64,000 bases of DNA from Saccharothrix syringae (GTDB lineage Bacteria; Actinomycetota; Actinomycetes; Mycobacteriales; Pseudonocardiaceae). The position numbers and the translations under genes are program-made. A model generated the notes under the pieces. That model was given only the letters and a program-made list of their open reading frames with translations, ran no database searches and was not told the origin of the DNA. This document shows, piece after piece, positions 2,844-20,253 of this stretch (positions are counted from its first letter, which is position 1; the number at the start of each line of letters is the position of its first letter). The stretch covers positions 2,046,001-2,110,000 of the forward strand of contig NZ_CP034550.1 in NCBI RefSeq assembly GCF_009498035.1, in the 5' to 3' direction.

Positions 2844-4790
2844 TCAGAACAGCCTGTCCGAGAACTCGCTGTCGCGGGCGGTCGCGCATTGGCGGGCCAG
2901 TGGACACCCCTCGCACATCGGTGCTTGCTTGTGGCAGTGGAGCTGGCCGACCAGTCGCAACGCGGCCATGCGCAACGGTGCCTTGGCGTCACCTCCCACC
3001 AAGCGGGACAGGTCGACCCTGCCGTCGGTGAGGCTGTTCGCTCGTTCCGAGCTGGTGTTGAGCACGCGTGACGACACGCGGATGACCGGTTGGCTGGTCA
3101 ACAGGACGTCGTCGCCCGCCAAGAGCTTCAAGAGGACGGTCTTCCCGGGTGGAAGGGCCAAGACCTCCGGCATGTCCTGGGGGTGCAACCAGAGTCTCCG
3201 GTCATTCTGCAACTGCCGCAAACGCGTGACCGCCGCAGCGGCCACGCGCCTGACTGCCGCCTGCTCGATGAGGTCCACCGCTTGCTTGGTGACCCGCCTC
3301 TTGCTGGCCACTTCACGGAGGCCGGGAGTGTACGCGGCCAGTTCAACGGGTGACGGGTCCAGCATCGCCACGACCGCGGCGACCGGTGGGGTCAACTGCT
3401 CCCCGGGGAGCACGCACCAGTAGTTCCCGTCACGCCGCTCCTCGGCCCAAGCGGCCAAGTGGTTGGCGAGAACGCGCCACCGGTTCTGACGGGCTTTGTC
3501 GATAACCGGTACCGGGGACAATGCGATGGCTGCGGCCTTGCCCAGCATCGGTGGAACGGCGTTGCCGATCTGCTGGAACGCGTGGCTGCGGCTGCCCGCG
3601 AAGCGGAAGTCGTCCGGGAACGTCTGGATGCGGGCGGCCTCGCGAACGGTGAGGGTGCGGTTCTCCGACGGGTGGATGTACCAGTAACCGTCTTTGGCGA
3701 TGTGCGCTGTGATGGAGCGGCTCAGCTCGTCCCAGTCCAACCGCTTGTACTTGTCGTCGAACGTTTCCGCCGTGTACCTGCGCAAGCTGGGGTCGATGTG
3801 CGCGTAGAGCGTCTTGGACGTCATCGAGGCGAAGATCTCGCGATCATCGTCGCGAACAGGTCGGGTCATGTGGTCCCACACCGTCTCCTCATTGGTGCCG
3901 CGCCTCATCACCTTGGCGAAATCCGACACCTCACCAGTGGGTGAATAGCTCAGCTCTCGACCGCCCGTGGTGAGGCCGAGGTCGGGTAAGTCGGCGATCG
4001 CGTCCCGCACGGTCACCGCTTTGCCGGGGCTGGGCCAGGTGAAGGTGTCGCTGTCCAGGCGGGCGAGCAAGATCAAGCGCTTGCGGTGCTGGGGAACGCC
4101 GTACTGCCAGGCGTCGACCAAGCGCAGGTTGGTCCGGTATCCGACGTCTTCCAGCATGTCCACGATCCGTCGCACGACGTGGAAGTCGTCGCCCAAGGCC
4201 ATGTCGGGGACGTTCTCCATGAGCACCGCACGGGGCTTCACCTTGAGCACGACGTCGACGTACGCCCGCCACAGCTCCTTGCGCTCGTCGAACTCGTCGC
4301 GCACACCCGCGTCCACCAGACTGCGGATCTTGCTGCGCCCGGCCCTGCTGAACGGTTGGCACGGTGGTCCACCGGCGATGAGGTCGATGTCGACGCGTTT
4401 GAGCCTCCTGATCAACGCGGCGCGCTTCTTCGGGTCTCCCAGGTCCACGTCGAGCGCGAGGCCGGGGAAGTTCGCCCGGTGGGTCTGGAGCGCGAACTTG
4501 TTGTGGTCGACCGAGGCCGCGACGGTCCACCCGGCGTCGGTCAAGCCCAGGCTCAACCCACCGCCACCGGAGAACAGGTCGACCGCGAGCCGGGCGCCGT
4601 TCGCCACCCGCTCGGCGCACCACTGCTCGAACGTCTCCTCGGTGCACGCGTCGGGGTGCACCGGCAGTTGGAGCAGGTCGCTGCGTTCGAGCTTCACCGC
4701 GTAGACCGCCACGTCGCCTCCCGTCCACCGAACAGGGACCCGCGCGGGACCTCCACCACCGACGATCTGGTTCTGCTCAACTTCTTCCAT
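2844..4790 (-). CDS. C5-cytosine DNA methyltransferase with endonuclease III-like C-terminal domain
   Basis: 648 residues. C5-MTase motifs occur in order: I 'DLFSGGGGLSLGL' (~72), IV 'GGPPCQPFS' with the catalytic Cys (~143), VI 'MENVP' (~192), VIII 'QHRKRL' (~236), and IX/X with 'QIGNAVPP' (~405). This core methylates cytosine at C5. The last ~200 residues are unusual. They read like a worn HhH-GPD glycosylase ('LPPGKTVLLKLLAGDD' near 547 in place of the helix-hairpin-helix, then 'QPVIRV'), and they end in Cys619-X6-Cys626-X2-Cys629-X5-Cys635, exactly the [4Fe-4S] spacing of endonuclease III. The start ATG has a GGGAAG ribosome site. It is 68 bp after the AIPR gene and is probably the last gene of the defence operon. 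DISARM class 2 also uses a C5-MTase. Confidence 0.92.
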   Translation of the reverse strand: MEEVEQNQIVGGGGPARVPVRWTGGDVAVYAVKLERSDLLQLPVHPDACTEETFEQWCAERVANGARLAVDLFSGGGGLSLGLTDAGWTVAASVDHNKFALQTHRANFPGLALDVDLGDPKKRAALIRRLKRVDIDLIAGGPPCQPFSRAGRSKIRSLVDAGVRDEFDERKELWRAYVDVVLKVKPRAVLMENVPDMALGDDFHVVRRIVDMLEDVGYRTNLRLVDAWQYGVPQHRKRLILLARLDSDTFTWPSPGKAVTVRDAIADLPDLGLTTGGRELSYSPTGEVSDFAKVMRRGTNEETVWDHMTRPVRDDDREIFASMTSKTLYAHIDPSLRRYTAETFDDKYKRLDWDELSRSITAHIAKDGYWYIHPSENRTLTVREAARIQTFPDDFRFAGSRSHAFQQIGNAVPPMLGKAAAIALSPVPVIDKARQNRWRVLANHLAAWAEERRDGNYWCVLPGEQLTPPVAAVVAMLDPSPVELAAYTPGLREVASKRRVTKQAVDLIEQAAVRRVAAAAVTRLRQLQNDRRLWLHPQDMPEVLALPPGKTVLLKLLAGDDVLLTSQPVIRVSSRVLNTSSERANSLTDGRVDLSRLVGGDAKAPLRMAALRLVGQLHCHKQAPMCEGCPLARQCATARDSEFSDRLF

Positions 4791-4858
4791 GCCACTTCCC
4801 GGGACCGGTCCGCTCGGCCGCCCCGACGCGCGAACGATGAAAACGGGGATGAAGTCGC

Positions 4859-6604
4859 CTAGCCGGCGAGTACGTCGGAGGGGGGAGCCCAGCCCACGGC
4901 GCGGACGCGGTCCCAGCAGGCGGTTTTCTTCGCCCACTCCGTGATGTTCCCCCCGCTCGGGGGAGAGGTGAGCACCCGCCGCACCGCCTTCGCGACATCG
5001 GGCACCGCCGTGGCGATCGCCTCGGGCAGCGTCTGCTCGCGCCAGAGCCGGTCCAAGTCGAGTCCACCGAGCGTGTGCACGATCAGCGACACGGTGTGCG
5101 CCGCAGTCTGCCCCAGGTAGCCGCCGAAGTTCTGCTTCTGGATGATCGACCTCACCTGGCGGAACAGGATCCCCTTTGCGACCAAGTGGCGGAAGTACAC
5201 GTCGTCGGGGGCTTCGCGCTCAGCCAAGCCCTCGTCCGACGTCCACGTCCGGAAGCACTTCTCGGCGCCCTGGCACACGACCTCCGGCCGGAGCGAGTAG
5301 GCGTACTCGTACTTCGCGGCGTCGGTCTTGCCGAACCGCTGCCGCACGGGGTTCTCGCGGTCGAACTTGCGCCGCGCGGCGGCGGTCGTGAACTTGTTCT
5401 TCTCGACGTCGTACTGCCCACGCACGCGTTCGTAGTACCAACGGGTCTGCTCGACGTCGACACCGAGAGGGGTCACCCAGGTGGTGCGGGACCAACGTTC
5501 CAGCCCCACGTGGAAGCGGCTGTTGCCCTCGAAGTCGGCCGGGGTGACGGCGTTCTGCGAGTTCGCGTAGCGGGAGATCTCCGGGACCATGCTGTCCAAC
5601 CGGTCGTCGGGGATCAGGGTGATCTTCGCGGGCACGGTGACCTCGGACAGGTCGATCCCCTTGCGGGCCGCGTGGTGCAGCGAGGCCGTGGTCTGCCCAC
5701 CGTTGACGATCTGCAACTCGGTCAGGGTCCGCAGCACCAGTCCGTTCGACGTCCGTTCGAGGTCCGCTGCACGAGCGGTGGCCGAGACGCCGTTGTTGTA
5801 GGCCAGGAACCGGCCGGGCTGTTCCTTGATCGTCTCCGCGATCCCCTTGTTGACCTTCCCCCGGGCCTGGAGGTAGGCGCGCACGTTGCGCTGGAGCAGG
5901 CGGCTGTGGTGCTCGTCGTACAGGTCGGCGAGCAGCTTGCCGGGCAGCATCGCCATCAGGCAGCGGTACCCGTCGGCCTGCTCGGGTGACTCCAAGCACT
6001 GCACCTCGTACCCCATCTTCGCGACGTCGATGAGGATGTCCTCCTGCTGGGCCCCCGAGCTGATCAGCTTCTGGAGGCGGCTGACGTCCCACACGTTCAC
6101 CAGGGTCGGGAGACCGGCGACCGTGGCTTCCTCCGCGCGGCGCAACCCGGTCTTCCCGTCGGTGAAGACGAAGATTTTGATCATCTGGAGCTGGGACCAC
6201 GCGCTGTGGATGCGCTCGACCATGTCGTACGCCGGACTCGACCGCTCCAGCTGCTCGTGCAGGCCGTTGCGGCAGAACTCCGCGAACGCGCCCACGTAGC
6301 GGACCAACTGGGTGAGCCGCTCTCGCTTCAACGGCTCGGCGTCCATGCCGTACTCGGACGTGACGAGGTGCAGGATCGTGCCGTCGCCCGTGATGTCGTA
6401 CCCGGCGACCTCGACGCGGCGGTTCTGCCAGGGCATGAACAGGTAGCAGGTGTCCAGGTCGTCCAGCGCCCCGTCGTCGATCAGGTGCTCGCCGACCAGG
6501 GTCACGAACGCGTCCCGCGCCATCAGCTCCGGTTCGGCCTGGACCCGGTCGTCCACCCTGCGCCGCAACTCGGCTGCGAAGGCGGCGAGCTCACCGTCCG
6601 TCAC
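4859..6604 (-). CDS. AIPR family protein (abortive-infection phage-resistance type)
   Basis: 581 residues. The centre contains the AIPR family signature: 'FLAYNNGVSATA' near residue 268 and 'LQIVNGGQTTASLHHA' near 300, followed by 'PEISRYANSQNAV'. AIPR proteins are found in abortive-infection and restriction loci, but their biochemical activity is not settled, so no reaction is assigned. The GTG start sits in the stop of the sigma-fusion gene (GTGA). A longer open frame extends upstream, but it reads as the out-of-frame shadow of the sigma-fusion gene and was not used. Co-translation with the sigma fusion, the DrmB-like and the DrmA-like proteins implies that it works in the same defence system, probably as effector or modulator. 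Confidence 0.88.
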   Translation of the reverse strand: MTDGELAAFAAELRRRVDDRVQAEPELMARDAFVTLVGEHLIDDGALDDLDTCYLFMPWQNRRVEVAGYDITGDGTILHLVTSEYGMDAEPLKRERLTQLVRYVGAFAEFCRNGLHEQLERSSPAYDMVERIHSAWSQLQMIKIFVFTDGKTGLRRAEEATVAGLPTLVNVWDVSRLQKLISSGAQQEDILIDVAKMGYEVQCLESPEQADGYRCLMAMLPGKLLADLYDEHHSRLLQRNVRAYLQARGKVNKGIAETIKEQPGRFLAYNNGVSATARAADLERTSNGLVLRTLTELQIVNGGQTTASLHHAARKGIDLSEVTVPAKITLIPDDRLDSMVPEISRYANSQNAVTPADFEGNSRFHVGLERWSRTTWVTPLGVDVEQTRWYYERVRGQYDVEKNKFTTAAARRKFDRENPVRQRFGKTDAAKYEYAYSLRPEVVCQGAEKCFRTWTSDEGLAEREAPDDVYFRHLVAKGILFRQVRSIIQKQNFGGYLGQTAAHTVSLIVHTLGGLDLDRLWREQTLPEAIATAVPDVAKAVRRVLTSPPSGGNITEWAKKTACWDRVRAVGWAPPSDVLAG

Positions 6605-9600
6605 GTCGTCCCCCCAGTTCGGTGTCGTTCGATCACGAGTTCGGACTTGCTGCGCGCTATGCGGGCGAGAGCGGCCAACCTCGGCCGGAGCGGCTCCGGC
6701 GGCACGACGGTGGCACCGGGGTGATCTCCACCCCACGTGGCGCGCTGTTCGGGCGGCACCTCGACGAGCACCCTGGCCAGTGCGGTGCCCTCCGCCATGT
6801 CCAGGCCGTCGAGCCCGAGCCAGCCGCCGCGGGAGAGGTATCGACCGTCGCACCGCACGTAGAAGCCCTGGCTCATCCGCCAGTCGGAGGGATCGCCCAC
6901 CGAAGCTGTGTCACCCGCCCGCAGAGCTTCCGGGTGGGGGAGGACGCGAGGGCTCGCCACCACCGACAACCCCGCGGCGGTCACCCGTTCCTCCCCGAGG
7001 TGCTGACCGGCCGGGTTGCCCCACAGGAAGGGGTCCTGAGCGGTGACCGCACGTCCGTTGACGTCGATCTCGACCTTTCGCCGCAACAACTCGCCGAACA
7101 CGACGCCGAGGTCGCGGACGCACCGGTCGAGGACCGCACCGACGCGCGCACGTGCGACCTGGGGCCGCGGGGCCCGGAGCAGCACGACCGACCACCGATC
7201 GGACTTCATCCCGGGCAGCAGTCCTGTGGGCAGCCTGCGCGTGGCGCGGTGCAGCCACCAGGCGTCGGTGTGCGCTGCGGAGGTGAGGACCAGGCAGGCC
7301 GAGGAGGTGTGGGAGTCCCAGGCGGTGACCTCGTCGTAGAGGGCGGCGGCGACACCGAGGGCCGCGGATCCGCGCGACACCTCCTGCCCTTCGCGGAGGG
7401 TCGAGAGCAGCGCGTACCCGGCGAAGGCGGCTCCGTCGTGGACCAGGGCGAGCCTGGAACTCGTGCCTGCGCCCGCGGTTCTGATCCGGATGTGACGGGC
7501 ACCGGACGACAATGCGCGGTCCGCCAAGGCGATCAGCAGGTGGCCGACAGCGCTGTCCTCACCCGCGGCGCCGAGCCGTTCCACCAAACCTGTCCCCGTG
7601 GCGATCTCCGTGCCGAGCGGCCGCCGTTCGCGGACAGGTGTCCGCACGACGCTCAACCGGCGGAGCGAGACCTCCTTCGAGGGAGTGGAGGTCGTTCCGC
7701 CGGCGGTGAGTCCCACGTCCGCCAGTTTCCCGACGAGCTTGCTCTTCGCCTTGCTCTCGATCTGCCGTATCCGCTCGCGCGTGACCGAGAAGTGCTCGCC
7801 GATCTTCTCCAGCGTACGGTCGTCACCACCGTCGAAGCCGAACCGCAACCTCAGCACCTCGGCCTCGCGCTCCTTCAGCTGCGACAGGGCTTTCCGCACG
7901 AGTTCGGCGCCGAGTTCGTTGTCGATCACGTAGTCGGGGTTCGAGTGGTGTTCGAACGGAGCGGGAACCAGTTCCGCGAACGAGATCTCCCCGTCCGCGC
8001 CCAGAGGTGCGTCCAGGCTGATCACGCCCCTGGACAACCGCAAGCAGTCCACCACCTTCTCCCGGGAGAACCCGGTGCGCTTGGCGATCTCCGCGATCGG
8101 AGCGTCCTCCTGCTCGAGGAGCAGCCTGTTCCGGACGGCGCGGACCTTGCGGACTTCCTCGTACTTGTGGACCGGCAACCGGATCGTCGCGCCTTCGTCG
8201 GGAACGGCGCGACCCATGTGCTGGTTGATCCAGTTCACCGCGTAAGTGGAGAACTTCAGCCCCCGCGAGCCGTCCCACTTCTCGATCGCCCGCATCAGGC
8301 CCAGCAGCCCGTGCTGGTACAGGTCCTCGTAGTCGAGTCCCGCGCCGAGGTGCCTGCCGATGCACGAACCGACGAGACCGGTGTTGTGCAGCACCATCGC
8401 GTCGAACGCTCGGGCCCGCACGTCGTCGTCACGCAGGGTCGAGCGGAAGCCCTTCGGCAGTTCGTCCGACAGGGCTTCGTCGGCTGAACGCATGAGCTGT
8501 GCCAACCCGACCTCCTGGTCGGCGGTCAGCAGGCGCTTGGACCGGGCGTTGCTCCGCATCGGGACTGCGAGCAGGGCGCGAGCGCTGTCGACCGCCGACC
8601 GGGTGGGCAGAACCGGTTGCTCCGGCACGGCGGCACGAGACGTCGGGAACTCGAAAGTCGGGTCTGCCTCCACCCATTCGCCACCAGGCGCGTCGCGGGT
8701 TCGGTCGTCGAGCAAGGCCGGCGTCAGCCCGCTCAACGAGGTGGGTCGTCCGACACCGGAGTAAGAGAGGAACAAATCCGAACGTGCCGTCGGACCGAGT
8801 ACCCGCAGCGCGTTCTCCAACCGGAAGCGGTCCTCCACGTGGTCGAGTCCCGCCAACACGATGTGGTCGAACCGCATTCCTATGGCGCTGACCCAGGTCA
8901 ACACCTTCACGCCGGGGTCGGACCAGGTGATCGCGGCGTGCTTCGGGGCCTTGACGCCCGAGAGGTGCCATTGCGTCTTGCCGTCGAACAGGTCTCCGAT
9001 CCCGTCCTTGAAGACCTGGACCAGTTCCCGGGTCGGGAGGAACACACCGATCTGCCGGTCGCGGTGCGCTGCCGCCTGCTCCACGACGAACCGGATCTCC
9101 TCGTCGACGTCTTCGTGGTCGACCAGCACCGGTCGTGGGCCTTCGCGGTGAGGCGCGGCCACCGGGAACGACCTGTCTCCGATGTGCGCCAGCAACTCGT
9201 GGATCTGCGCCGTACCGCCGTCAACCTCGTGGGAGGTGGTGGCGGTTCTCGCGCCGAGGAGAGTGGTCAGGTCCTCCAGCGTCGTGCCGGACTCGTCGAC
9301 CGTCTGCACGGGGTCGACGAATACCGTCGCCTCGATGCTGAGCAGACGGAGCACCGTGTAGAAGTCACGCGGCAGTTGCTGCCCTTGGACGACGATGACG
9401 TGCCGTCGGTCCAGAGGTCGGACGTAACGAGCCCGGAGGTGTTGCTTGAACTCCCAGAAGTCGATGTCGTAGTCATCCGCCTGCGGCTGCTTGATCCGCA
9501 GCACCGTGCGCCAGACGTTGGCGAAGTACGAGTGGTACGTCATCACGGTGTCGCCGCGGCTCTCGAACGGCATCAGCGTGCGGATGCGGTTCGTCAGCAC

Positions 9601-9753
9601 GCTCGACCGGGTGATGACGTGCAGCTCTTTGCCATGCCCCCGCAGGCGGCGGTAGGCCGCGACGGCTTCGCGTGCCTGGTCGACCGCAGGTGCGGCGACC
9701 ACCACAGCGTGACGGGGCGCCTCGTGGACCGAGGCGTGTAACGCGGCGCTCAC
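6601..9753 (-). CDS. Degenerate SF1 helicase / sigma-70 factor / GHKL-like fusion protein
   Basis: 1050 residues, with three recognisable parts. Residues 1-380 resemble a UvrD-type helicase but have lost the Walker A (the expected GxxGxGKT reads 'APAVDQARE' near 22). Later motifs survive in weak form ('TYHSYF', 'VIVVQGQQLP', 'LTWVSAIGMRFDHIVLAG'). Residues ~400-700 are a full group-1/2-like sigma-70: region 1.2 'LLTADQEV', region 2 'DYEDLYQHGLLGLMRAIEK' and 'KFSTYAVNWINQ', region 3, and region 4 'TLEKIGEHF' plus 'VTRERIRQIE'. Residues ~715-1050 resemble a GHKL ATPase ('HLLIALADRAL', 'VHDGAAF', 'GSAALGVAAAL'), again with key acidic and glycine residues altered. Both GTG start and stop overlap neighbours by 4 bp. 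A housekeeping-type -35 reading helix inside a defence operon suggests promoter targeting or RNA polymerase contact. That role is inferred. Confidence 0.85.
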   Translation of the reverse strand: MSAALHASVHEAPRHAVVVAAPAVDQAREAVAAYRRLRGHGKELHVITRSSVLTNRIRTLMPFESRGDTVMTYHSYFANVWRTVLRIKQPQADDYDIDFWEFKQHLRARYVRPLDRRHVIVVQGQQLPRDFYTVLRLLSIEATVFVDPVQTVDESGTTLEDLTTLLGARTATTSHEVDGGTAQIHELLAHIGDRSFPVAAPHREGPRPVLVDHEDVDEEIRFVVEQAAAHRDRQIGVFLPTRELVQVFKDGIGDLFDGKTQWHLSGVKAPKHAAITWSDPGVKVLTWVSAIGMRFDHIVLAGLDHVEDRFRLENALRVLGPTARSDLFLSYSGVGRPTSLSGLTPALLDDRTRDAPGGEWVEADPTFEFPTSRAAVPEQPVLPTRSAVDSARALLAVPMRSNARSKRLLTADQEVGLAQLMRSADEALSDELPKGFRSTLRDDDVRARAFDAMVLHNTGLVGSCIGRHLGAGLDYEDLYQHGLLGLMRAIEKWDGSRGLKFSTYAVNWINQHMGRAVPDEGATIRLPVHKYEEVRKVRAVRNRLLLEQEDAPIAEIAKRTGFSREKVVDCLRLSRGVISLDAPLGADGEISFAELVPAPFEHHSNPDYVIDNELGAELVRKALSQLKEREAEVLRLRFGFDGGDDRTLEKIGEHFSVTRERIRQIESKAKSKLVGKLADVGLTAGGTTSTPSKEVSLRRLSVVRTPVRERRPLGTEIATGTGLVERLGAAGEDSAVGHLLIALADRALSSGARHIRIRTAGAGTSSRLALVHDGAAFAGYALLSTLREGQEVSRGSAALGVAAALYDEVTAWDSHTSSACLVLTSAAHTDAWWLHRATRRLPTGLLPGMKSDRWSVVLLRAPRPQVARARVGAVLDRCVRDLGVVFGELLRRKVEIDVNGRAVTAQDPFLWGNPAGQHLGEERVTAAGLSVVASPRVLPHPEALRAGDTASVGDPSDWRMSQGFYVRCDGRYLSRGGWLGLDGLDMAEGTALARVLVEVPPEQRATWGGDHPGATVVPPEPLRPRLAALARIARSKSELVIERHRTGGTT

Positions 9754-11534
9754 AGGAGGTTCCCCGGGACACCGCCGACGGTTGCGGCCAGGTCCTTGAA
9801 GAACCCGAACTCCGGGTCGACCAGCAGGCGTCGGTCCAGCAGCCGGTTCGTCGCCTCACAGCTCGTCTCCGGCGTCAGCGAGCACGCGTGGCACGCGGCC
9901 AGCGACAGCCCGTCGGGCCCTTGGCCGGGGTGGTCCGCGCACACCGGGTCGAACGAGCACCACAGGGCGGTGGTGATCGACATGTCGAGGAGTCTGCCCA
10001 ACCGGGGGAACTCGCCCATCCTGACCAGGCCGCCCAGCGTGCCCTCCGAGTCACCAGCCGCCGTGTAGATCAGCACGCCGGACATGGGGGGACCGCCACC
10101 GTTCTTCGTCACGTACAGGCGCTCGCGCAACGAAGATGTCGAGTAGCCGGCTTCGAAGGCGGTGTTGCGCAGGAGCAGGTGCGCGAGGGTGTGCAACAGC
10201 ACGAAACGCGGCGTGGGCTCGGGGAGCCACGTCGCACCCGTCAGCTCGCGCCGGTCGGCCAATCGCCGGCACCGGGTCACCACCGGAGCGGACTTCTCCC
10301 ACCGAACGAGGGGCTCCTCGTCGAACCTGAGGAAGAACCCCTCTCCGAACACCTCGACGGCCGGCAGGAAGTCGGGGTCGTCGCTCAGGTTGGACGGCAC
10401 CTTCTCCTCCATCGCGTAGCGCTCGAAGTGCGTCAGCACCCGAACCTCGCGGAGGCGGTCGACCAGCACGACCTCTGGGATCAGCCGGCTCCAGCCGTTC
10501 ACGGTCCCACTCGCGGGGCGCAGCGGGCGATCGGCCCGTCGTGAGATGAACTGGTCCTGGTGGTGGTGCTCCTCTTCCCTCGGGTTGATCAGAGCTGCCC
10601 ACTCGTCCGGGCGGATGTTCTCGGGTCCGCCATCGGGTTGTGCGTGGGATGCGCTCATCTCGTTGGCCAGCGCCGCCTCGACCTCGGCGACGGACAGGCC
10701 GTGCTCGTCGGCGATGACCTCGATCATGGCCTTGGCCAACTTGTAGCCCGGGTTGTTGACGAGGAACTTGAAGTCGTCTCTCTTCCTCAAGACCGCCAAA
10801 GGCTCGCTGACGGAACTCCAATCCGAGTCGGGTGGGATGTCGATCGCGCTGACCACGTTCGGGAAGTACACGCTCGACGCGCCGCGCTGCATCGCCACCA
10901 CCTGCTTCGCGCACACCTTCGCGTCTTTTTGGTCCTGCCACGGCTGCCTGCCTGTGCACTTGCTGCCGATGTGCTTCAGCCCGACGCTCGTGGTGAGCCC
11001 GTCCAGCGTTCTCTCACCGCCGCAGGGCACGCACCGCACGACGAGGGAGTTGAGGCCGCCGCCGACGTTGGCCTTGCTGAGGAACTTCAGGTCCGATCGC
11101 TGGCACTGGTTCTGGTTGCGGTCGCGGCGATCGGCCGAGTGCGCCCAACGGACCCAGTCGACGTCCGACAGGTGCCCGTCGGCGCACACCGCCACGAACC
11201 GCATGGGGATGAGTTGCTTTCCGGCGGGGCAGTGCTCGCACTTCGGAGGGGTGTTGGCGACTTCTCTGGTGTACGACCACCGGCTCATGCGCCGACAGGC
11301 CGGGCAGAACAACCACTGCGGGAACCTGTAGTAGGGGATTGGCCTGCCCGGCATGGGCGAGGCCAGGGAGTTCACCCCGAGGTACGAGGCGAGCCTGGGG
11401 AAGTCGACGGGCACGCGTTGACGGGGCCACCTGCCCGCGTCCTCCACCACGAAGGACTCGCCGACGAGGTCGATGATCGCCCCGGGTCCGAACGGGCTGA
11501 TGACCTGTGAACGTCGAACCTTGCGCACGGTCAC
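9750..11534 (-). CDS. DrmB-like DUF1998 protein
   Basis: 594 residues. It begins with 'RKVRRSQVISPFGPGAIIDL', the typical opening of DrmB proteins of DISARM. A zinc-finger region near residues 78-105 has 'CPACRRMSRW' and 'CEHCPAG', followed by 'FVAVCADGHLSD'. The C-terminal DUF1998 region contains 'LLHTLAHLLLR', 'YTAAGDSEGTLGG', and a Cys-rich stretch 'CSFDPVCADHP...CHACS'. In DISARM, DrmA and DrmB form the core complex that engages unmodified phage DNA. The GTG start overlaps the DrmA-like stop, and the gene's stop overlaps the sigma-fusion start, so the three should be made together. No PLD nuclease (DrmC) is present beside it. Confidence 0.87.
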   Translation of the reverse strand: MTVRKVRRSQVISPFGPGAIIDLVGESFVVEDAGRWPRQRVPVDFPRLASYLGVNSLASPMPGRPIPYYRFPQWLFCPACRRMSRWSYTREVANTPPKCEHCPAGKQLIPMRFVAVCADGHLSDVDWVRWAHSADRRDRNQNQCQRSDLKFLSKANVGGGLNSLVVRCVPCGGERTLDGLTTSVGLKHIGSKCTGRQPWQDQKDAKVCAKQVVAMQRGASSVYFPNVVSAIDIPPDSDWSSVSEPLAVLRKRDDFKFLVNNPGYKLAKAMIEVIADEHGLSVAEVEAALANEMSASHAQPDGGPENIRPDEWAALINPREEEHHHQDQFISRRADRPLRPASGTVNGWSRLIPEVVLVDRLREVRVLTHFERYAMEEKVPSNLSDDPDFLPAVEVFGEGFFLRFDEEPLVRWEKSAPVVTRCRRLADRRELTGATWLPEPTPRFVLLHTLAHLLLRNTAFEAGYSTSSLRERLYVTKNGGGPPMSGVLIYTAAGDSEGTLGGLVRMGEFPRLGRLLDMSITTALWCSFDPVCADHPGQGPDGLSLAACHACSLTPETSCEATNRLLDRRLLVDPEFGFFKDLAATVGGVPGNLL

Positions 11535-14500
11535 TTGCGAGGCCCCCTCACTTGCACGTGGACCTCGACGTCGACGCTGCGCATCGAGTCGAGCGTCGCC
11601 CAACCATCACCCCGCTCGGTGAACCGCTTGAGCAGCTTGGGGCGCTCACGCCCACCTTGGCTGTAGCGCAGCCCGCCGAGGGGTTCCGCGTCGGCCGCCC
11701 GCTTCACCCACCTCTCGATCAGGGTGTCCAAGTGGGTCTCGACTCGTTTGAGCTCGGTCGCATCCGCCCGTTCCACGCGGCTGAGGAACCTCCTGAGGAG
11801 CGTGGCGAAGCGCTCGTCATCGGGGTCGAACGACGCAGCTTGCTGATCGCCCGACAGGCCGAGCGCGTGGCGTACCAGCACGACCAGGTCAGCGTGGAGG
11901 GCGCGCAGTCGCGCCGGCACCGAGAACGGGGTCACCGAACTCGGTTCCACCGAGCGGTAGAGGCTCGCGTGGTAGGGGGTGAACGACTCGTAGTGGGACC
12001 GGTCGCGCGGCTTGGACGGCGAGTAGACCGTCACCACGAGGCCGGGGCGGTCGACGTTCCGCCCCACGCGGCTGGTGGCCTGGATGTACTCGGCGGTCGT
12101 CTTCGGTTGGCCTACGACGGTCATGATGCCCAGCCGACCGACGTCGACGCCGACGGAGATCATGTTGGTGCTGGCCAGGAAGGCGACGCCACCGGGCGCG
12201 TCGTGCGGCTCCTTCAGCCGGTCGAGGCGTTTCGGGATCTGCGCGGAGGCCACGTTGCTGGTCAGCTCCACCACGTTGTCGTCGTGGAGCTGCCGCACGT
12301 GGTCCTCGGCCCGTGCGATCACCTTCAACCGCGACGGGATGTCGTCGGCTGCCAAGTTGATCGTCTTGCCCAGCTCGCGGAGGCTGTTGTGGTAGACGAC
12401 GAGGGTGGAGTACGCGTCCTCGGCCGCGGGCGTCAGCTCGACCTCCAACGGCGCCTGCAACTGCGCCGCGGCGACGTGGATGAGCGCGGTGAGCGGTGTG
12501 TGGCCCTGCGGCATGACACCCATGTAGGCGCGCCCGGGTGCTGAGTGGTTCGTGCGCACGAAGTACGAGTCGGTGGCGTCGAGACCTGCGGGTGGGAACA
12601 GCGAGACGGACCGCCCGAAGACACCCCTGGTCTGCTCGTCGGCCCGGCGGATGGTGGCTGTGGCGGCAACGATCTTCGGCTTGTTCCCCAGGTGCTCCAT
12701 CAGCACGTCGAAGGCCGCTTCGTAAAGGCCGACGATGGTACCCAGCGGACCGGAGATGAGGTGGAACTCGTCCTGGATGATCAGCGACGGACCGGGGTCG
12801 CGGCCCGCCCCGAAGAACACGCCGGTGTTCTCGTTCCACACCGTGCGGGCGAACTTGTCGACCGTGCCGACCAGCATGGTGGGCGGGTTCTGGTAGAGGT
12901 CCTCGTCCACCGACGACATCGGCAGTTCCGTGCGGAACGGGCACTTGTCGTTCAAGCACCGCACCCGGAATGAGTTGTTGGTCGCCGAGATGCCCCACCG
13001 CTGTTCGTCGTCCTGGTCGCCGGGGACGATCCGCGTTCCGCACCACGGGCAGGACTCGATCTGGAACCCCTTGTCGCCCGCCGCACCGTCACGCGCTCGC
13101 GCGAGTAATCGGCGGGCGTCCACGAAGCTGTTGGGGCTGTTCTCGCCGCCGACCCACAAGCCGATCGACACGGGGCGGCTGCCGAGTCGTCCGTTGGAGT
13201 CGCGGCGCACCAGCTCACAGGCGGCGATCATGGTCGCGGCTCGCTGGAACTGCTGGCTGGTGAGCAGCCGCAGGGTGTACCTGGTGATGACGGCGGTGCC
13301 CGCTCCGCCCTCCCCCAGGGTCAGCCTCCGGTGGAAGACGGTGAACGCGGCGAGCCCGAGGTACGCCTCGGTCTTGCCACCGCCGGTGGGGAACCAGATC
13401 AGGTCGACCAGGTCCCGATCCTCCCCCTCCTGGACCACGCCCTTAACGGTCATAAGCAGGAAACCGAGTTGGAAGGGACGCCAGGTGGGGTTGAGCGAGT
13501 CGTAGTCGACCCGCGGGTCCGGCGCTTCCGAGGGGGCGTGCGGTGAGCCGCCGAGGTGCGGCCGGCTGTGCGCCATCTGCATGGCCATCACCCTGTTGGC
13601 GAGCGCGAAGGCTTCGAGCGCGTCCGGGTCCTCGCGCAGGAAGTCCAGGCCGGAGAGCATGCGATCCCTGGCCCGGATCGCGCGGTCCCGCAACCGCTCG
13701 GCCGCAGGGCGGAGGCGCGGGTCGAGGTCTGCCGGCGCCGCGTCCCAGGTCTTCCCGATCCAGTCGGAGTACCGGTCGACGAAGCGGGTCAGAGCCGCGA
13801 ACACGGGCTCCGGAGTGGTGGCGATCTCAGCGAGGCCGTTCAAGCGGACGGCGTCCGCCACGTCGGGCAGGTCGAAGGCGACATCCGGCACGACGTGCAC
13901 AGGGAGGAACGACGTGCCGACCCACTCGGGCCGTTCGCCCGCGGTGTCCCAGCGGGCTGCCGTTCCGTGGCCGACGGCGTACACGGGCACATCGCGGTAC
14001 TGGAGTTCGAGTTCTTCAGCTTCGTCGTCGCTGTGGGCCCGTGCCTGCGTCGGATAGCGGATGATGGCGCTTCCCGCAACCCGGCAGCGGAGCCCGACTT
14101 GGAAGAGGCAGTCCTCCGGAGCCACCGCCCGGCGCTGCTCCTGCACCTTGCGGTTGACCAGGACGACGGTGACGATCACCCCACCCGGATGTGGACGCCA
14201 GGTGACCTCGGCGCTGGCGGCCTCGCCCCACAGGTTGACCTTCCGGTGAATCCCGGAGGACGGGGGCTCGACCGTCAGCGCGGCACTTCCCACGAGGTCG
14301 AGCGGTTCGCGCTGCCACTCGTCGTCCTCGTCCGAGAAGCGGTGGTACCGCGCGGCCCGCACCTCCACGCTGATCGCGGACCGGTCCGCGATCATGAAGC
14401 TGATGCCGGCCGAACTCGGTCGGCTCTGCCCTGCGAGGGTGATGGGATCGTCGTCGTCGTCCTCGATCAGGGCGCCCGCCTGGTCGTCGACCTCCTCCGC

Positions 14501-14698
14501 GTCATCCGCCGGACCGCTCGCGTCGGCGGTAAGCGGGGCGAGCGACACCGGGTACAGCACGGCAGTCAGGTACCGGTGCTGCGGCGCCTTCTCGTAGAGG
14601 ACTTCGTCATCCCCGTCGACCGGGCCGACCAGCTGGTCGTGCAGGTACTCGAGCACCCTGTCCCGGTCCGGGAACCCCGTGGTGTGCACCTCCGTCAC
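11531..14698 (-). CDS. DrmA-like SF2 helicase
   Basis: 1055 residues. It opens with 'RVLEYLHDQLVGP' and 'YLTAVLYP', the usual DrmA beginning. The SF2 helicase motifs are Walker A 'FPTGGGKTEAYLGL' (~436), a DExH variant 'IIQDEFHLISG' (~642), motif III-like 'VAATATI', and motif VI 'YIQATSRVGRN' (~877). A zinc ribbon 'CPWCG...CLNDKCPF' sits between motifs I and II (~552-582). An acidic low-complexity stretch lies near residue 55. The start GTG overlaps the upstream helicase stop (GTGA). The open frame runs about 280 residues further upstream, but that part is Arg/Gly/Pro-rich shadow sequence. In DISARM this helicase would load or move on invading DNA. Confidence 0.88.
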   Translation of the reverse strand: MTEVHTTGFPDRDRVLEYLHDQLVGPVDGDDEVLYEKAPQHRYLTAVLYPVSLAPLTADASGPADDAEEVDDQAGALIEDDDDDPITLAGQSRPSSAGISFMIADRSAISVEVRAARYHRFSDEDDEWQREPLDLVGSAALTVEPPSSGIHRKVNLWGEAASAEVTWRPHPGGVIVTVVLVNRKVQEQRRAVAPEDCLFQVGLRCRVAGSAIIRYPTQARAHSDDEAEELELQYRDVPVYAVGHGTAARWDTAGERPEWVGTSFLPVHVVPDVAFDLPDVADAVRLNGLAEIATTPEPVFAALTRFVDRYSDWIGKTWDAAPADLDPRLRPAAERLRDRAIRARDRMLSGLDFLREDPDALEAFALANRVMAMQMAHSRPHLGGSPHAPSEAPDPRVDYDSLNPTWRPFQLGFLLMTVKGVVQEGEDRDLVDLIWFPTGGGKTEAYLGLAAFTVFHRRLTLGEGGAGTAVITRYTLRLLTSQQFQRAATMIAACELVRRDSNGRLGSRPVSIGLWVGGENSPNSFVDARRLLARARDGAAGDKGFQIESCPWCGTRIVPGDQDDEQRWGISATNNSFRVRCLNDKCPFRTELPMSSVDEDLYQNPPTMLVGTVDKFARTVWNENTGVFFGAGRDPGPSLIIQDEFHLISGPLGTIVGLYEAAFDVLMEHLGNKPKIVAATATIRRADEQTRGVFGRSVSLFPPAGLDATDSYFVRTNHSAPGRAYMGVMPQGHTPLTALIHVAAAQLQAPLEVELTPAAEDAYSTLVVYHNSLRELGKTINLAADDIPSRLKVIARAEDHVRQLHDDNVVELTSNVASAQIPKRLDRLKEPHDAPGGVAFLASTNMISVGVDVGRLGIMTVVGQPKTTAEYIQATSRVGRNVDRPGLVVTVYSPSKPRDRSHYESFTPYHASLYRSVEPSSVTPFSVPARLRALHADLVVLVRHALGLSGDQQAASFDPDDERFATLLRRFLSRVERADATELKRVETHLDTLIERWVKRAADAEPLGGLRYSQGGRERPKLLKRFTERGDGWATLDSMRSVDVEVHVQVRGPRK

Positions 14699-16356
14699 CC
14701 GTCCACTCCCGTTCCACCCGGCTTGAAGACCCACAGGGCGGCCTTGGCCCGGGTCATGCCCACGTACAACTGCGCACGTGCCGCCTTTTCGTCTGCCGTG
14801 TCGTCCACTTCCAGGAGGACGTACCGGCTTTCCAGCCCCTTGAAGTCGGCCACTCGGGCGAATCCGACGCGACCTCGACCGGGCCGGCGCATGCGCATCA
14901 GGTCCAGCACATCGATGCGTTCGAGCCATTCCGCAGGCAATTCGACGAAGATCGATGCGTTCAACTGGTGCGGTGACAGCAGCACGACCTGCTCCGAAGG
15001 CACATCGTGTTCTTCGAGTTCGGTCAAGGCTGCCAACACCGCGGCGACCGCCTTCTCGCGGACCTCCTCGACCACCACGACCTCGCGGCCGTGGCCCGCC
15101 TCGGTCACCCCCAGATCGGCTCCTGTGCGCTCCTGGGTGGCGCGGACGATCTCGATGGTGTTCCGGCAGTTGTCCATCAAGTCGACGTTGGTTGGGCGGT
15201 GGGAGTCCAGCCTGGCCTTCGCATCGTCCTCGTAGCGACCGACCAGCCCCCGCTGGTTGTTGGAGTCGAGGAAGAACGCCCAGCGGCCGTCCGCCAGGCC
15301 GCCCACCAGCACGGTGTCCAGCACGTCGAGGTCGTGCCCGTTGACGACGTCCTGCCCCTCGTCCACCACGACCACGTCGAAGGTGTCCGCGTCGAAAGCC
15401 GACACCTGGTCGAACGGGACTGCGGTGATGCCGTCCAAGTCCTGCTGCGAGCGGATGAAGGCGGCGAGGACGTGGCTTCGGCAGGTCAGCAGGACACGTT
15501 CGCCGGAGACCCGGGCCCGCCTGCACATCTCGACCGCCAGCATGGTCTTGCCCGTTCCGGCACCGCCCTCGAACACCACCCGCGGGTTCCTGCGGTGCTG
15601 GTCCAGGGCCTTGTACTGGCTCTTGGTCAGGGCGACGAGTTCCTTCTCGACCAGGTCGTCGAGACGGCGCAGGGACAGCACGCGGTCGAAGTCGGGGCGG
15701 AGGACGTTGAGGTAGCGCTCGATGTCATCGGGTGACAGAGGTCCCCGCCCGCCGAGCTTGTTCTCCCAGAACGCGCCCAACCGGTCGAGGCAGTCCGCCC
15801 ATCCCTCGGACGCCAGTCGGACCTCGTTGATCACCATTTCCGGAGCCCATTCCACGCTGACCGCGTCGAACTCGCTGTCGGGGAAGACAGCTCCGTACCC
15901 GAAGACCGTGCGGTCGACCAAGTCCGGGTCGGCCGTGGTTCGGCGGAGGACCTTCTCCAGGGCGAACATGCTGGTCTGCGCTTGGTCGAGAGGGCTCTCC
16001 TTGAGTCGGTGCCGATTGCCCTTGAGGTCGCGCGTGTGCCACACACCCTTCCTCAACAGGATCTCGCCACCTTTGACTTCGAGTACCAGCAGGCCGCGTT
16101 CGCCGAGCAAGAGGAAGTCGATCTCGCACACCCGCTTGCGGTCGTGCTCGGGCAAGTTGGTGCTGTGCATGGCATATTCCCACCCAGCCACTTCGAGTGC
16201 AGCCAACTGGGAGAAGATCTCCTGCTCGGCCCGGCTGGCACCGGGATGCACCGAATCCGGGATCATGCGCACGGTAACCTGCCTGCTCTGCGACGAGTGG
16301 GGGAAGTGGTCGAAAGTGTGTTCGAGCAGTTCAGCGAAGTCCCCCTCTTGGATCAC
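14695..16356 (-). CDS. NERD nuclease-domain / UvrD-like helicase
   Basis: Up to 553 residues. The N-terminal third is a nuclease-related (NERD) domain with a PD-(D/E)xK-type core: 'EIDFLLLGERG' near residue 80 and 'LVLEVKGGEI' near 93. The remainder is an SF1 helicase with Walker A 'EGGAGTGKT' (~260), Walker B 'VVVDEGQD' (~328) and 'YVGMTRAK' (~532). Together these suggest a DNA-unwinding nuclease. It is the first gene of the coupled minus-strand operon and lies divergent from the Vsr gene, so the operon promoter should lie just above 16356. The first codon is uncertain: GTG at 16356 has a poor ribosome site, and an ATG at 16266 is the alternative. Confidence 0.86.
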   Translation of the reverse strand: MIQEGDFAELLEHTFDHFPHSSQSRQVTVRMIPDSVHPGASRAEQEIFSQLAALEVAGWEYAMHSTNLPEHDRKRVCEIDFLLLGERGLLVLEVKGGEILLRKGVWHTRDLKGNRHRLKESPLDQAQTSMFALEKVLRRTTADPDLVDRTVFGYGAVFPDSEFDAVSVEWAPEMVINEVRLASEGWADCLDRLGAFWENKLGGRGPLSPDDIERYLNVLRPDFDRVLSLRRLDDLVEKELVALTKSQYKALDQHRRNPRVVFEGGAGTGKTMLAVEMCRRARVSGERVLLTCRSHVLAAFIRSQQDLDGITAVPFDQVSAFDADTFDVVVVDEGQDVVNGHDLDVLDTVLVGGLADGRWAFFLDSNNQRGLVGRYEDDAKARLDSHRPTNVDLMDNCRNTIEIVRATQERTGADLGVTEAGHGREVVVVEEVREKAVAAVLAALTELEEHDVPSEQVVLLSPHQLNASIFVELPAEWLERIDVLDLMRMRRPGRGRVGFARVADFKGLESRYVLLEVDDTADEKAARAQLYVGMTRAKAALWVFKPGGTGVDG

Positions 16357-16671
16357 CTAAGCAGTCGTGCGCGAACGATCCATCGCTCGTTCGGGTGACA
16401 TGGTTACACGGCAAAAAATGTGAGCTTTAGTCACGTGTGCATGTCGGGCTCGTCATTCGATCAGAACACTTTGAGTGTGCCTGCGAACCCGATTTTTGCG
16501 GTCTCATGTTGCGTCGTACGAGTGGTGAAACACCCATGTAGGGGCACCTGTGAACAAGCTCGGCGCGCTGAAGTCGGCAGTTGCTCGGACGGGGCTGCTG
16601 CTACCAATCGCGCCATGCGGGGCAACCCTGAGACCGCCCTCATTTCGCAAGCGGTCGGTATCCGCGAAGTC
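16357..16671. promoter_or_regulatory. Divergent control region of the defence island
   Basis: This gap separates the minus-strand defence operon from the plus-strand Vsr gene and is AT-richer than its surroundings near 16410-16500. It holds a 13-bp palindrome, ACACT-TTG-AGTGT (16466-16478). Promoters in both directions are inferred from gene orientation; I could not fix convincing -35/-10 boxes. Confidence 0.4.
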
Positions 16672-17193
16672 ATGTCGACCGATGTCGAGGTGGGCCAGGT
16701 TGTCGGGGGTCACAGGCAACATGAGGGCGTGTACACCTACCTCGATCCTGGGCCGGCACCTCCTGCAACACGCCAGGCCACCGCGAAGGTGCTGCGCCGC
16801 ATGAAGCGGTCCGGCACGCGGCCCGAGCTGGCGTTGCGCAGTGCGCTTCACCGCCTGGGTCTGCGCTTCGTCGTGGATCGCGCTCCGCCCGGGACGGATC
16901 GCCGCAGGCGCGTTGACATCCTGCTGCGCGGTGCGCAGATCGCCCTGTTCGTCGATGGGTGCTTCTGGCACTCCTGTCCGGTACACGGTCAACTCCCGAG
17001 AGCCAACCGCACGTGGTGGCGGCTGAAGTTGCGGGGCGTCGTGTTGCGCGACCGCGACACGGACGCCCGGTTGACCGCAGCCGGGTGGTTGGTGGTCAGG
17101 GTGTGGGAGCACGAAAATCCCGCAGAAGCTGCGGAGCGCATACGCGGTCTGGTCGCGATGCGCACCACACATGCGCAGATAGGGGGAGGATGA
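16672..17193 (+). CDS. vsr: Very short patch repair (Vsr) endonuclease
   Basis: About 173 residues from the chosen ATG. The Vsr fold is clear: 'RRMKRSGTRPELALRSALHRLGLRF', the catalytic core 'VDILLRGAQIALFVDGCFWHSCP', and the terminal 'GWLVVRVWEHE'. Vsr nicks 5' of the T in T:G mismatches that arise when 5-methylcytosine deaminates, so it usually accompanies a C5-methyltransferase. Here that partner is at the far end of the divergent operon. The start is uncertain: an ATG at 16615 and a GTG at 16729 are in frame, and none has a good ribosome site. The Vsr signature begins near 16780. In a defence setting it could also act as a strand-specific nickase. Confidence 0.88.
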   Translation: MSTDVEVGQVVGGHRQHEGVYTYLDPGPAPPATRQATAKVLRRMKRSGTRPELALRSALHRLGLRFVVDRAPPGTDRRRRVDILLRGAQIALFVDGCFWHSCPVHGQLPRANRTWWRLKLRGVVLRDRDTDARLTAAGWLVVRVWEHENPAEAAERIRGLVAMRTTHAQIGGG

Positions 17194-18096: not shown

Positions 18097-20253
18097 TCAG
18101 CTGCCGTGGATGGCGGCGCGGATCGTGTCCAGGTCGGCCACGCTGACCGGGTTGTCGTGGCCCGGCATCCGTCGCTTGCCCGCTGAGGGAACTCCGGCGG
18201 CGCGCAGTGCCTCACCGAACGCCTTGACCTCCCAACCGATGCGCCCGGCCAGCTCCGATCGAGCTACCAGGCCGTGCTCGTCTTCGCTGATCACGTTGGC
18301 CAGCAGCGTCAGCACTTCCGGTGGTTCGCGTCCCGGCTCGGCACCTGTGAGTTCTGGTGTACCGGCGGTGGCGGTGGCGACCTCGGTGGTCAGGCGTGCG
18401 GCTGCCGTCGGATCGAGCACCGCCAGGTCGTGCTCTCCGGAGGCGTCCCCGGTCAGCGTCCCGGCCTGCTCGCGCAGCACTCGGCCGCGTTCGCAAGCGG
18501 CGCGGATCGCGGTGATGTGCAGCAGGTGCGTGCGCACCGTGACCGCCTCCCTGGCTGACAGCTCGGTCTCACCGTCGGCACCCAGCAGCAGGCCGACGCC
18601 CTTGTGGCTGGTCAGCAGCTTGGAGGCGTCCATGCCGGCCTTGTAGGTGCCAGCGCCGAGGATGGTCTCCGATGCCTGCCAGGTCATGGTCTTCAGCGCG
18701 AATCGCGTCCCGAGCTGGCCGCGCAGCCCGTCCGGGATGACCTGGGCGTCCGGCTTCTGGGTAGCCAGGACCAGCGAGTAGCCCGCGGCCGGACCGGTCT
18801 TGGCGATGTAGGTCAGGAGTTCGCAGATGCGTGCGCCCACCTTCTTGCCCTTGGGGTTGTCATCGTCCAGTGGCACGTCGAGGCCGAGGAAGTTCTGGAC
18901 CTCATCGATGCCGATCACGGTCAGCGGCATTCGGTGGGTTGGGTCGCGGGTGATCTCCGGGGTGACCTTGGACTCGGGGCACAGTTCGTCGTCCATCTCG
19001 GCGAGCCGGTCGAACCGGTCGGCCACGTCCGCCGCGCACTCCTCCAGCACGCTGATCAGCCGGCGGGCGTCGGCCTCCCGGGAGCCTCGGATGAAGCGGT
19101 GTGCCACCTGTTCGAACGGTCGGAAGTCCTTGCCGCCCTTGCCGTCGGCGATGATCAGCCGCACGTGAGGGTCCAACGCCGCGGCGGTGAGCGGGAGGCG
19201 GGCGACGAACGTCTTGCCTTGGCGAGGGATCGCACCGATCAGCAGGGAAGTCCACACCACCGGCAAGTTCACGGTCGCACCGCGGGCGGTGGTGCCGAAG
19301 GGTACTGGCTGCCACAGGTCCCAGCTCGGCGCCGACGCGAGCGGGCTGGGGATCGGGTCGGTGGCGTACGGGTCGGCGTCGCCCACCCACAGCGCCAGCC
19401 GTCCGGCGTGGCCGTCGTCGCCCCGGACGCGTTCCACGATCAGCCGCACCTCGTCCACCGCCAGCGCCGAGGCCAGGGCTTCCCGCCTGCCGATCACGTC
19501 GGACGCCTTGCGCGACGGTGGCAGGTCGAGTGTCAGCGCCCATCCGGCGCCGTCGTGGCGCGGGGCCTTGACCAGCATCAGCGACTCGTCGCGGCCGATC
19601 AGCTTGGCGTCGCGGAACGCGGTGACCAGGTGGTCGCCGTTCATCAGCCACGCCAGCGACCGGGAGCCCAAGCGGGTGCTGCGTCCACCCGCGCCCTCCC
19701 GGCTTCGACCGGCCGCCGCCAAGACCGCAGACATCGCGCCAGCAGTGACCAGCAGCGGCAAGGAGCCGACAGCCAGTTCGGCGACCAGGCCGGCAAGGCT
19801 GGCCGCGCTCATCCCCACCAGGGAGATCACGCCTCGACGGCGGCGCACGACGGCGATCTCCTGCCACTTGTCGGCCAGCCGGTCGGCGGCCTTGGACGCC
19901 TCGTAGAAGTCCGTCACCCGTACCCAAGCCCACCAGGCGCGGGCCGACACCGCCAGGCCGCGCCCGACCGCCGCCGAGTAGCGCATCGGCACCAGCAGCG
20001 CTTGGTTCACCAGTTCAACCCCGGCCTGGCGGGCGGACTCGGGGGTCTGCCACTGAGTGGGCAGGCGGGACACCGCCGACTCGGCCAGGCGGCGGACGCG
20101 AGAACGCTGGTACTCGGCTTCGGTGATCAGCTCGCCGTCCAAGGCAGGTGCGGTTGCTTCCACCGCACCTGCGTCCTCGGCGTTCCCCTCGACGGGGGCG
20201 TTCGGGAACGGAATCAACTCGCCGCCCCTGTCGCCCTGCATCGTCAGGCTCAT
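18097..20253 (-). CDS. FtsK/SpoIIIE-type conjugative DNA translocase (TraB-like)
   Basis: 718 residues. It has a hydrophobic region near 140-180 (probably two membrane helices), then a P-loop ATPase with Walker A 'GAIPRQGKTF' (~340) and Walker B 'VIGIDEVQNF' (~449), followed by 'LVLATQKPDAQVIP'. This layout matches the TraB/FtsK translocases that move double-stranded DNA between mycelia in actinomycete integrative conjugative elements. The C-terminus ends in a winged-helix-like region that could read a recognition sequence, as in TraB. The ATG overlaps the stop of the SpdB-like gene (ATGA) and has an AGGAG ribosome site. It is the last gene of a five-gene coupled transfer operon. Confidence 0.88.
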   Translation of the reverse strand: MSLTMQGDRGGELIPFPNAPVEGNAEDAGAVEATAPALDGELITEAEYQRSRVRRLAESAVSRLPTQWQTPESARQAGVELVNQALLVPMRYSAAVGRGLAVSARAWWAWVRVTDFYEASKAADRLADKWQEIAVVRRRRGVISLVGMSAASLAGLVAELAVGSLPLLVTAGAMSAVLAAAGRSREGAGGRSTRLGSRSLAWLMNGDHLVTAFRDAKLIGRDESLMLVKAPRHDGAGWALTLDLPPSRKASDVIGRREALASALAVDEVRLIVERVRGDDGHAGRLALWVGDADPYATDPIPSPLASAPSWDLWQPVPFGTTARGATVNLPVVWTSLLIGAIPRQGKTFVARLPLTAAALDPHVRLIIADGKGGKDFRPFEQVAHRFIRGSREADARRLISVLEECAADVADRFDRLAEMDDELCPESKVTPEITRDPTHRMPLTVIGIDEVQNFLGLDVPLDDDNPKGKKVGARICELLTYIAKTGPAAGYSLVLATQKPDAQVIPDGLRGQLGTRFALKTMTWQASETILGAGTYKAGMDASKLLTSHKGVGLLLGADGETELSAREAVTVRTHLLHITAIRAACERGRVLREQAGTLTGDASGEHDLAVLDPTAAARLTTEVATATAGTPELTGAEPGREPPEVLTLLANVISEDEHGLVARSELAGRIGWEVKAFGEALRAAGVPSAGKRRMPGHDNPVSVADLDTIRAAIHGS

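Follow-up and report, generated by a model that had tools for sequence, protein, structure and literature searches.

A sigma-70 module fused to degenerate helicase-like and GHKL-like domains in a DISARM-related operon of Saccharothrix syringae

DISARM, MZA and TALON are the described systems that most resemble the locus studied here. In the available passages of PMC9142583, DrmAB of DISARM is activated by 5'-overhang DNA, and methylation sensing in DISARM is a section topic. MZA also includes a sigma factor, for which the literature passages at hand give no mechanism, and TALON pairs a YprA-like helicase with a NERD nuclease and TBP (PMC12458937, in the passages available). Among the literature matches listed and the passages available, supplements aside and with Gao 2020 represented through passages of PMC9523054, no description of a DISARM-type system containing a sigma factor was found. 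Here we analyse an operon in a 64-kb stretch (the window; NZ_CP034550.1, positions 2,046,001 to 2,110,000) of the 10.93-Mb chromosome of Saccharothrix syringae, in which the gene at 6601..9753 (minus strand) encodes a 1,050-residue fusion of UvrD-like, sigma-70 and MzaB/GHKL-like parts, the two outer ones without their catalytic motifs.

With DISARM the operon shares the drmA-drmB core, its helicase motifs intact, and a C5 cytosine methylase; it differs in having a NERD helicase, the sigma fusion and an AIPR gene in addition. DrmA scored 694.5 bits with PADLOC and 902.7 bits with NCBIfam DrmAS, slightly below the cut-off of 950. The methylase matched DrmMII at 260.6 bits, generic C5 methylase models scoring higher (up to 285.5). 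DrmC, DrmD and DrmE found no match in the scanned part of the window's proteins, which included the six cassette genes. On the MZA side, the sole NCBIfam match of the AIPR protein was MzaE (353 of 1,050 bits), and a match of the fusion to MzaA was confined to the sigma part (residues 446-673; 216 of 800 bits). We rejected the MzaA label that PADLOC gives to this part because E. coli RpoD matches the same part of the PADLOC model and scores higher than the fusion, so that the model does not discriminate (RpoD 250, other sigmas up to 239, fusion 134 bits). The operon falls short of the full definition of DISARM and also of that of MZA. We read it as a sigma-containing, DISARM-related system and a putative DISARM-MZA hybrid, whose clade links two systems catalogued separately.

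TALON and TOTE, in the passages available, likewise have a basal transcription-initiation factor encoded alongside a YprA-family helicase and a NERD domain in one operon; they differ in having TBP in place of sigma, a non-homologous part, and in their other partners. The HelD/HelR helicases that bind RNA polymerase have a UvrD-like superfamily 1 (SF1) core as well, and differ in HelD-specific arms, for which there is no space here. In a comparison of the HelD relation with UvrD, UvrD proved the closer fold. Separately, another actinomycete (L036, 3578-19290) carries MzaB-MzaC-MzaD-MzaE and a C5 methylase next to drmB-drmA, with one helicase gene between; no sigma was found within the 20 kb of that locus.

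Domains of the fusion and its place in the operon

The gene is one stop-free open reading frame (ORF), as an initial annotation made from the DNA alone had described it (a single intact 1,050-codon gene with sigma). Approximately residues 405-680 (7714..8541, minus strand, as for all parts of the gene) exceed the Pfam cut-offs for sigma-70 regions 2, 3 and 4 and score below that for region 1.2; both flanks gave zero Pfam matches. Residues 1-395 (8569..9753) have the UvrD-type fold of an SF1 helicase core, with Walker A and Walker B gone. Residues 716-1050 (6604..7608) comprise a degenerate GHKL domain and the MzaB C-terminal block. This part is homologous to MzaB (hhalign 99.8%; PADLOC match at residues 875-1036), has lost its ATPase motifs and is not a gene of its own. 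The proposed UvrD-like N-terminus without Walker A and GHKL-like C-terminus with altered motifs were both borne out by these comparisons. The Foldseek matches shown for the full-length model were sigma factors of initiation complexes.

In five comparisons by the Nei-Gojobori method, the ratio of non-synonymous to synonymous substitution (dN/dS) was 0.09-0.46 in the domains versus 0.22-1.53 in the linkers. Every domain of the fusion is under purifying selection, which is strong in the case of the sigma regions.

The minus-strand gene order is NERD-SF1 helicase, drmA, drmB, fusion, AIPR and C5 methylase, with the fusion in fourth place. Four-nucleotide GTGA overlaps join the genes from nerd to AIPR, that is, at the first four junctions. 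Catalytic motifs are retained in NERD, DrmA and the methylase.

Fused and unfused relatives

Full-length relatives occur in three of 23 other genomes of the genus, and searching proteins with the N-terminal portion returned 23 of 839-1,061 residues, all with sigma domains. Two peptide patterns from the C-terminal profile, which distant members escape, were run against 84,980 species genomes and gave eight fused loci, in Saccharothrix, Lentzea, Amycolatopsis and Nocardia. In all eight, drmA, drmB and AIPR genes adjoin the fusion, as does NERD. The methylase comes next after AIPR in six; L014 has a piece of a methylase upstream, at the edge of the locus and on the opposite strand, and in L015 no methylase was found within the locus. 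Three further loci from another family (L091, L099 and L101) are fused too, with AIPR and methylase present and NERD not. Two of these (L091 and L099, ~17.7-19.8 kb) also carry a second, divergent C5 methylase gene behind the fused operon, and in the genome of L101 an MzaB-like gene follows it (L117).

The coupling to DrmA/DrmB-like and AIPR-like genes that the initial annotation had noted is seen both in the overlaps and in the eight loci; the findings it had named as speaking against it, other folds or a one-off fusion with no conserved neighbourhood, were not what emerged. Its account of domains and partners stood, and the neighbourhood is conserved. Its idea that the component recognises promoters or RNA polymerase is plausible, whereas its suggestion that it switches on the operon found no support in the promoter searches. 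The NERD-helicase gene had escaped it, as had the unfused relatives and the likeness to MZA.

The N-terminal profile had one match in the protein database, a 385-residue protein on a 9.9-kb contig. A plasmid search with the full fusion matched 464 records, none reaching 80% coverage; a phage search with the free-standing sigma matched 200 records partially; and ten pattern-matching stretches in viral contigs encoded no relative.

The N-terminal profile was positive in six of 397 genomes of the order, the source genome included. Of the other five, two carry the fusion: L069, and L070, the Lentzea fradiae locus already met above. The rest hold the parts as separate genes: L066 and L067 have nerd-drmA-drmB-mini-UvrD as a single operon with a free-standing divergent sigma alongside, and L068 has sigma-drmA-drmB-mini-UvrD all in line. 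L066 is a Micromonospora locus (UvrD 100% identical). The mini-UvrD keeps GK[ST] and DEGQD in seven of seven unfused loci; its only NCBIfam matches at an E-value of 0.001 were weak ones to HelD/HelR (up to 27.5 bits). At L072 (156-3749, minus strand), adjoining nerd-drmA-drmB-mini-UvrD, a 1,197-residue protein consists of sigma-70 followed by a helix-turn-helix (HTH) and a PDC-M33A-like part. Fusions of this sigma clade with defence modules are of at least two kinds, one with the degenerate UvrD and MzaB-like parts and one with the HTH and PDC-M33A-like parts. Because sister clusters hold the parts as separate, intact-looking genes, sigma seems to have a genuine function in the defence rather than to be there by accident.

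How closely sigma follows drmA was measured in 394 genomes of the class, where DrmB (PDLC02583) was found in 59 genomes at 71 places. The best 40 of the 71, 14-20 kb each, were taken and scanned with home-made profiles, our own locus and G166 excluded. Sigma was present in seven of the 40, unfused in L071, L072, L074 and L102 and fused in the three loci of the other family. The DrmA profile scored at least 1,260 in these seven places and at most 864 in the 33 without sigma. As this profile was derived from sigma-bearing members, a drmA tree was built as well (quick method, LG+G4). It separated 16 sigma-bearing from 35 sigma-free sequences by one change (SH-aLRT 100); all seven sigma-bearing neighbourhoods have drmA genes of a single clade, to which none of the 33 sigma-free ones belongs. 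Nine of the 16 sigma-bearing rows were not drawn from the class (the window, four loci of the pattern scan and four of the order search), and two of the 35 sigma-free rows (L036 and L038) came from a search with MzaB.

The sigma module and its possible role

The 17 defence sigmas form one clade (100/100) apart from 17 others, E. coli RpoD and actinobacterial sigmas. With primary and group 2 sigma-70 factors they share regions 2-4 and the -35 helix; they differ in this separate placement from the 17 sampled and, in the fusion, in a dead helicase where region 1.1 would be. As a family mark, QEGN of region 2.2 has become QHGx, with His in 14 of 17 and Asn replaced in all 17. Of the near-canonical -35 helix reported for the gene, TRERxRQ is retained in 16 of 17 aligned members, the region not being found in L102. 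The promoter-melting Trp pair survives in nine of 17; the eight that lack it are the seven Pseudonocardiales/Nocardia rows and L102. In the fusion this region 2.3 pair is incomplete, and all 20 close homologues lack its first Trp. Alignment upheld the earlier description of this part, one Trp and the -10 Gln kept (Trp434 and Gln437, unchanged in the window's branch) and Asn for the other Trp.

Canonical MzaA (Thalassospira and Neorhizobium plasmids) groups among housekeeping sigmas. By an approximately unbiased (AU) test, a clade uniting MzaA with the defence sigmas was not rejected (p 0.43), so that recruitment of sigma once or twice is compatible with the data. A description of the fusion as a plain 'MzaA-MzaB' was set aside, since canonical MzaA has a different N-terminus and this housekeeping placement. 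In L119 (5417-7669) and L120 (5744-7627) the sigma gene stands first in a canonical, plasmid-borne MZA operon.

The reading we favour, with slightly more doubt than confidence, is that the fusion acts as the hub of a DISARM-like machine, which its sigma part would direct to unmodified DNA by way of promoters or RNA polymerase. It would have arisen by joining a dedicated sigma factor to a mini-UvrD helicase and an MzaB-like GHKL protein, after which both flanking enzymes would have died and been retained as binding modules. The sigma part may bind promoter DNA, core RNA polymerase or both, and in a complex would recruit the DrmA-DrmB translocase, together with AIPR and the NERD nuclease-helicase, to DNA where transcription begins. 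Incoming unmodified DNA would be attacked there, the C5 methylase presumably marking host DNA as self. We favour this because the fusion has a fixed, stoichiometric place in the operon, because the sigma has repeatedly been fused to defence modules and is associated with them clade-wide, and because the DrmA and NERD motifs are intact, the methylase is present and TALON offers a precedent in TBP.

Several points weigh against it. The window's branch has Asn for the first melting Trp, Gly for Thr440 and Leu for Tyr425, and His and Leu at Glu407 and Asn409. We take the numbering and the roles of these residues, core contact at 407 and 409 among them, to be those of E. coli. Binding of RNA polymerase or promoter opening may be weakened by such changes. 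The full-length model has a pTM of 0.41, too low for its domain arrangement and packing to be trusted. Sigma runs divergently from the operon in five of seven unfused loci, an arrangement that fits a regulator as well as a subunit.

It is possible, if doubtful, that restriction is guided by transcription initiation itself, sigma delivering the DISARM-type helicase-nuclease to promoters as they open on unmodified DNA. Starting transcription would then be the mark of the invader, and sigma, with comparable doubt, could be the bacterial counterpart of the TALON/TOTE TBP.

A true transcription factor, which senses infection through the flanking modules and sends RNA polymerase to defence or suicide genes, is a possibility we would not put first; that the dead flanking domains serve it as a built-in anti-sigma or sensor is a similarly tentative idea. 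Sigmas of six of the seven unfused loci keep the Trp pair, the -10 Gln and the -35 helix (that of L072 being fused to other parts), and the Trp pair is kept in all three fused loci of the other family. Across the unfused loci sigma either heads the operon or points away from it; canonical MzaA, too, has intact sigma motifs, behind N-terminal ankyrin repeats (Thalassospira, L119). Against this stand the place of the fusion, fourth in a translationally coupled operon like a stoichiometric subunit, and the sequence upstream of that operon. A promoter-like two-box motif, TGTAAC-N17-CGAT, lies at 16382..16408 (minus strand) and recurs, in the orientation of the operon, immediately 5' of its first gene in nine of ten fused Pseudonocardiales/Nocardia loci, several of which are close kin and so not independent; the tenth (L016) has GGTAAC-N17-CGAT. 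In distant loci the spacer differs in sequence and not in length, and L013 has an extra exact match elsewhere with an 18-base spacer. No exact match with spacers of 16-18 was found in 33 control loci (642 kb), nor any in ten other sigma loci. The motif resembles sites of extracytoplasmic function (ECF) sigmas such as BldN, CGTAAC-N16-CGTTGA (PMC2375139, in the part seen), unlike TTGACA/TATAAT, which is what a TTGACA-type region 4.2 should read. No TTGACA/TATAAT pair appeared in a scan of 16200-16750 of the window, and selected stretches of ten sister loci gave one match (L102); we rejected auto-activation of the operon through a canonical promoter, the switching proposed initially. The 10.9-Mb genome has seven exact two-box sites, versus none for the backward control, and a clear regulon was not found among the seven.

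Less probably, the protein seizes or blocks RNA polymerase during infection, as an abortive shut-off effector or a decoy for phage anti-sigmas. This fits the partly retained, partly changed core-contact positions, the weak HelD/HelR matches of the unfused mini-UvrD and the Pfam naming of AIPR for abortive infection. It is more unlikely still that the sigma module has left RNA polymerase and is merely a sequence-specific reader of double-stranded DNA. Region 1.1, which in free sigma-70 masks DNA binding, is missing from the fusion, and positions 407 and 409 are changed in 16 and 17 of the 17 defence sigmas; Asp403 is nevertheless retained in 17 and Gln406 in 16, the segment that joins region 3 to region 4 (in the window, GADGEISFAEL) is mostly conserved across 20 homologues, and the strong selection on the sigma regions also speaks against such a reader. 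That the gene is a one-off fusion, pseudogene or assembly artefact is hardly conceivable and was excluded by the homologues: two domains do lack catalytic motifs, but 13 distinct fused loci (ten in Pseudonocardiales/Nocardia, three in the other family) keep the same partners, NERD and methylase excepted in some, and dN/dS is below 1 in each domain.

The clade forms a natural series, from a separate sigma with a live-looking helicase, through fusion with a dead helicase, to loss of melting residues. It makes the role of sigma in anti-phage operons testable as promoter reading, RNA polymerase holding or transcription.

Other features of the window

The first operon gene (14695..16356, minus strand) encodes the NERD nuclease and SF1 helicase, with EIDF..EVK, Walker A and DEGQD motifs; its start may lie ~30 codons downstream of the 553-residue call, and it is nearest to RTasNERD-Hel, the helicase of a reverse transcriptase (RT)-associated defence model (111 bits). 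Next on that strand are drmA (11531..14698), a YprA-like SF2 helicase of 1,055 residues with TGGGKT, DEFH and QxxSRxGR, and drmB (9750..11534; 594 residues; NCBIfam DrmB_fam 428.9 bits, cut-off 240). A single DrmA ORF at 11531-15526 was rejected: its ~280-residue N-terminus is false, the alignment with a sister locus crossing stops there and another frame holding a gene. Beyond the fusion come the AIPR/MzaE-like gene (4859..6604, minus; 581 residues) and the DrmMII-like C5 cytosine methyltransferase with PCQ, ENV and QxRxR motifs (2844..4937, minus, ORF as listed), whose uncertain start is at most 4937 and probably further in.

Four window ORFs, of 438, 718, 398 and 209 residues, were unmatched in the eight named fused loci, which extend only ~1.3 kb past the NERD gene and so hardly cover the upstream side. 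The 438-residue ORF follows the methylase (1363-2679, minus) and has neither a Pfam nor a PADLOC match; the 718-residue protein (18097-20253, minus) has a weak SspH-like PADLOC match (36.6 bits) and zero Pfam matches. Divergent from the operon is a Vsr-like endonuclease gene (16420..17193, plus; Pfam Vsr 44.8 bits), which probably starts later than listed.
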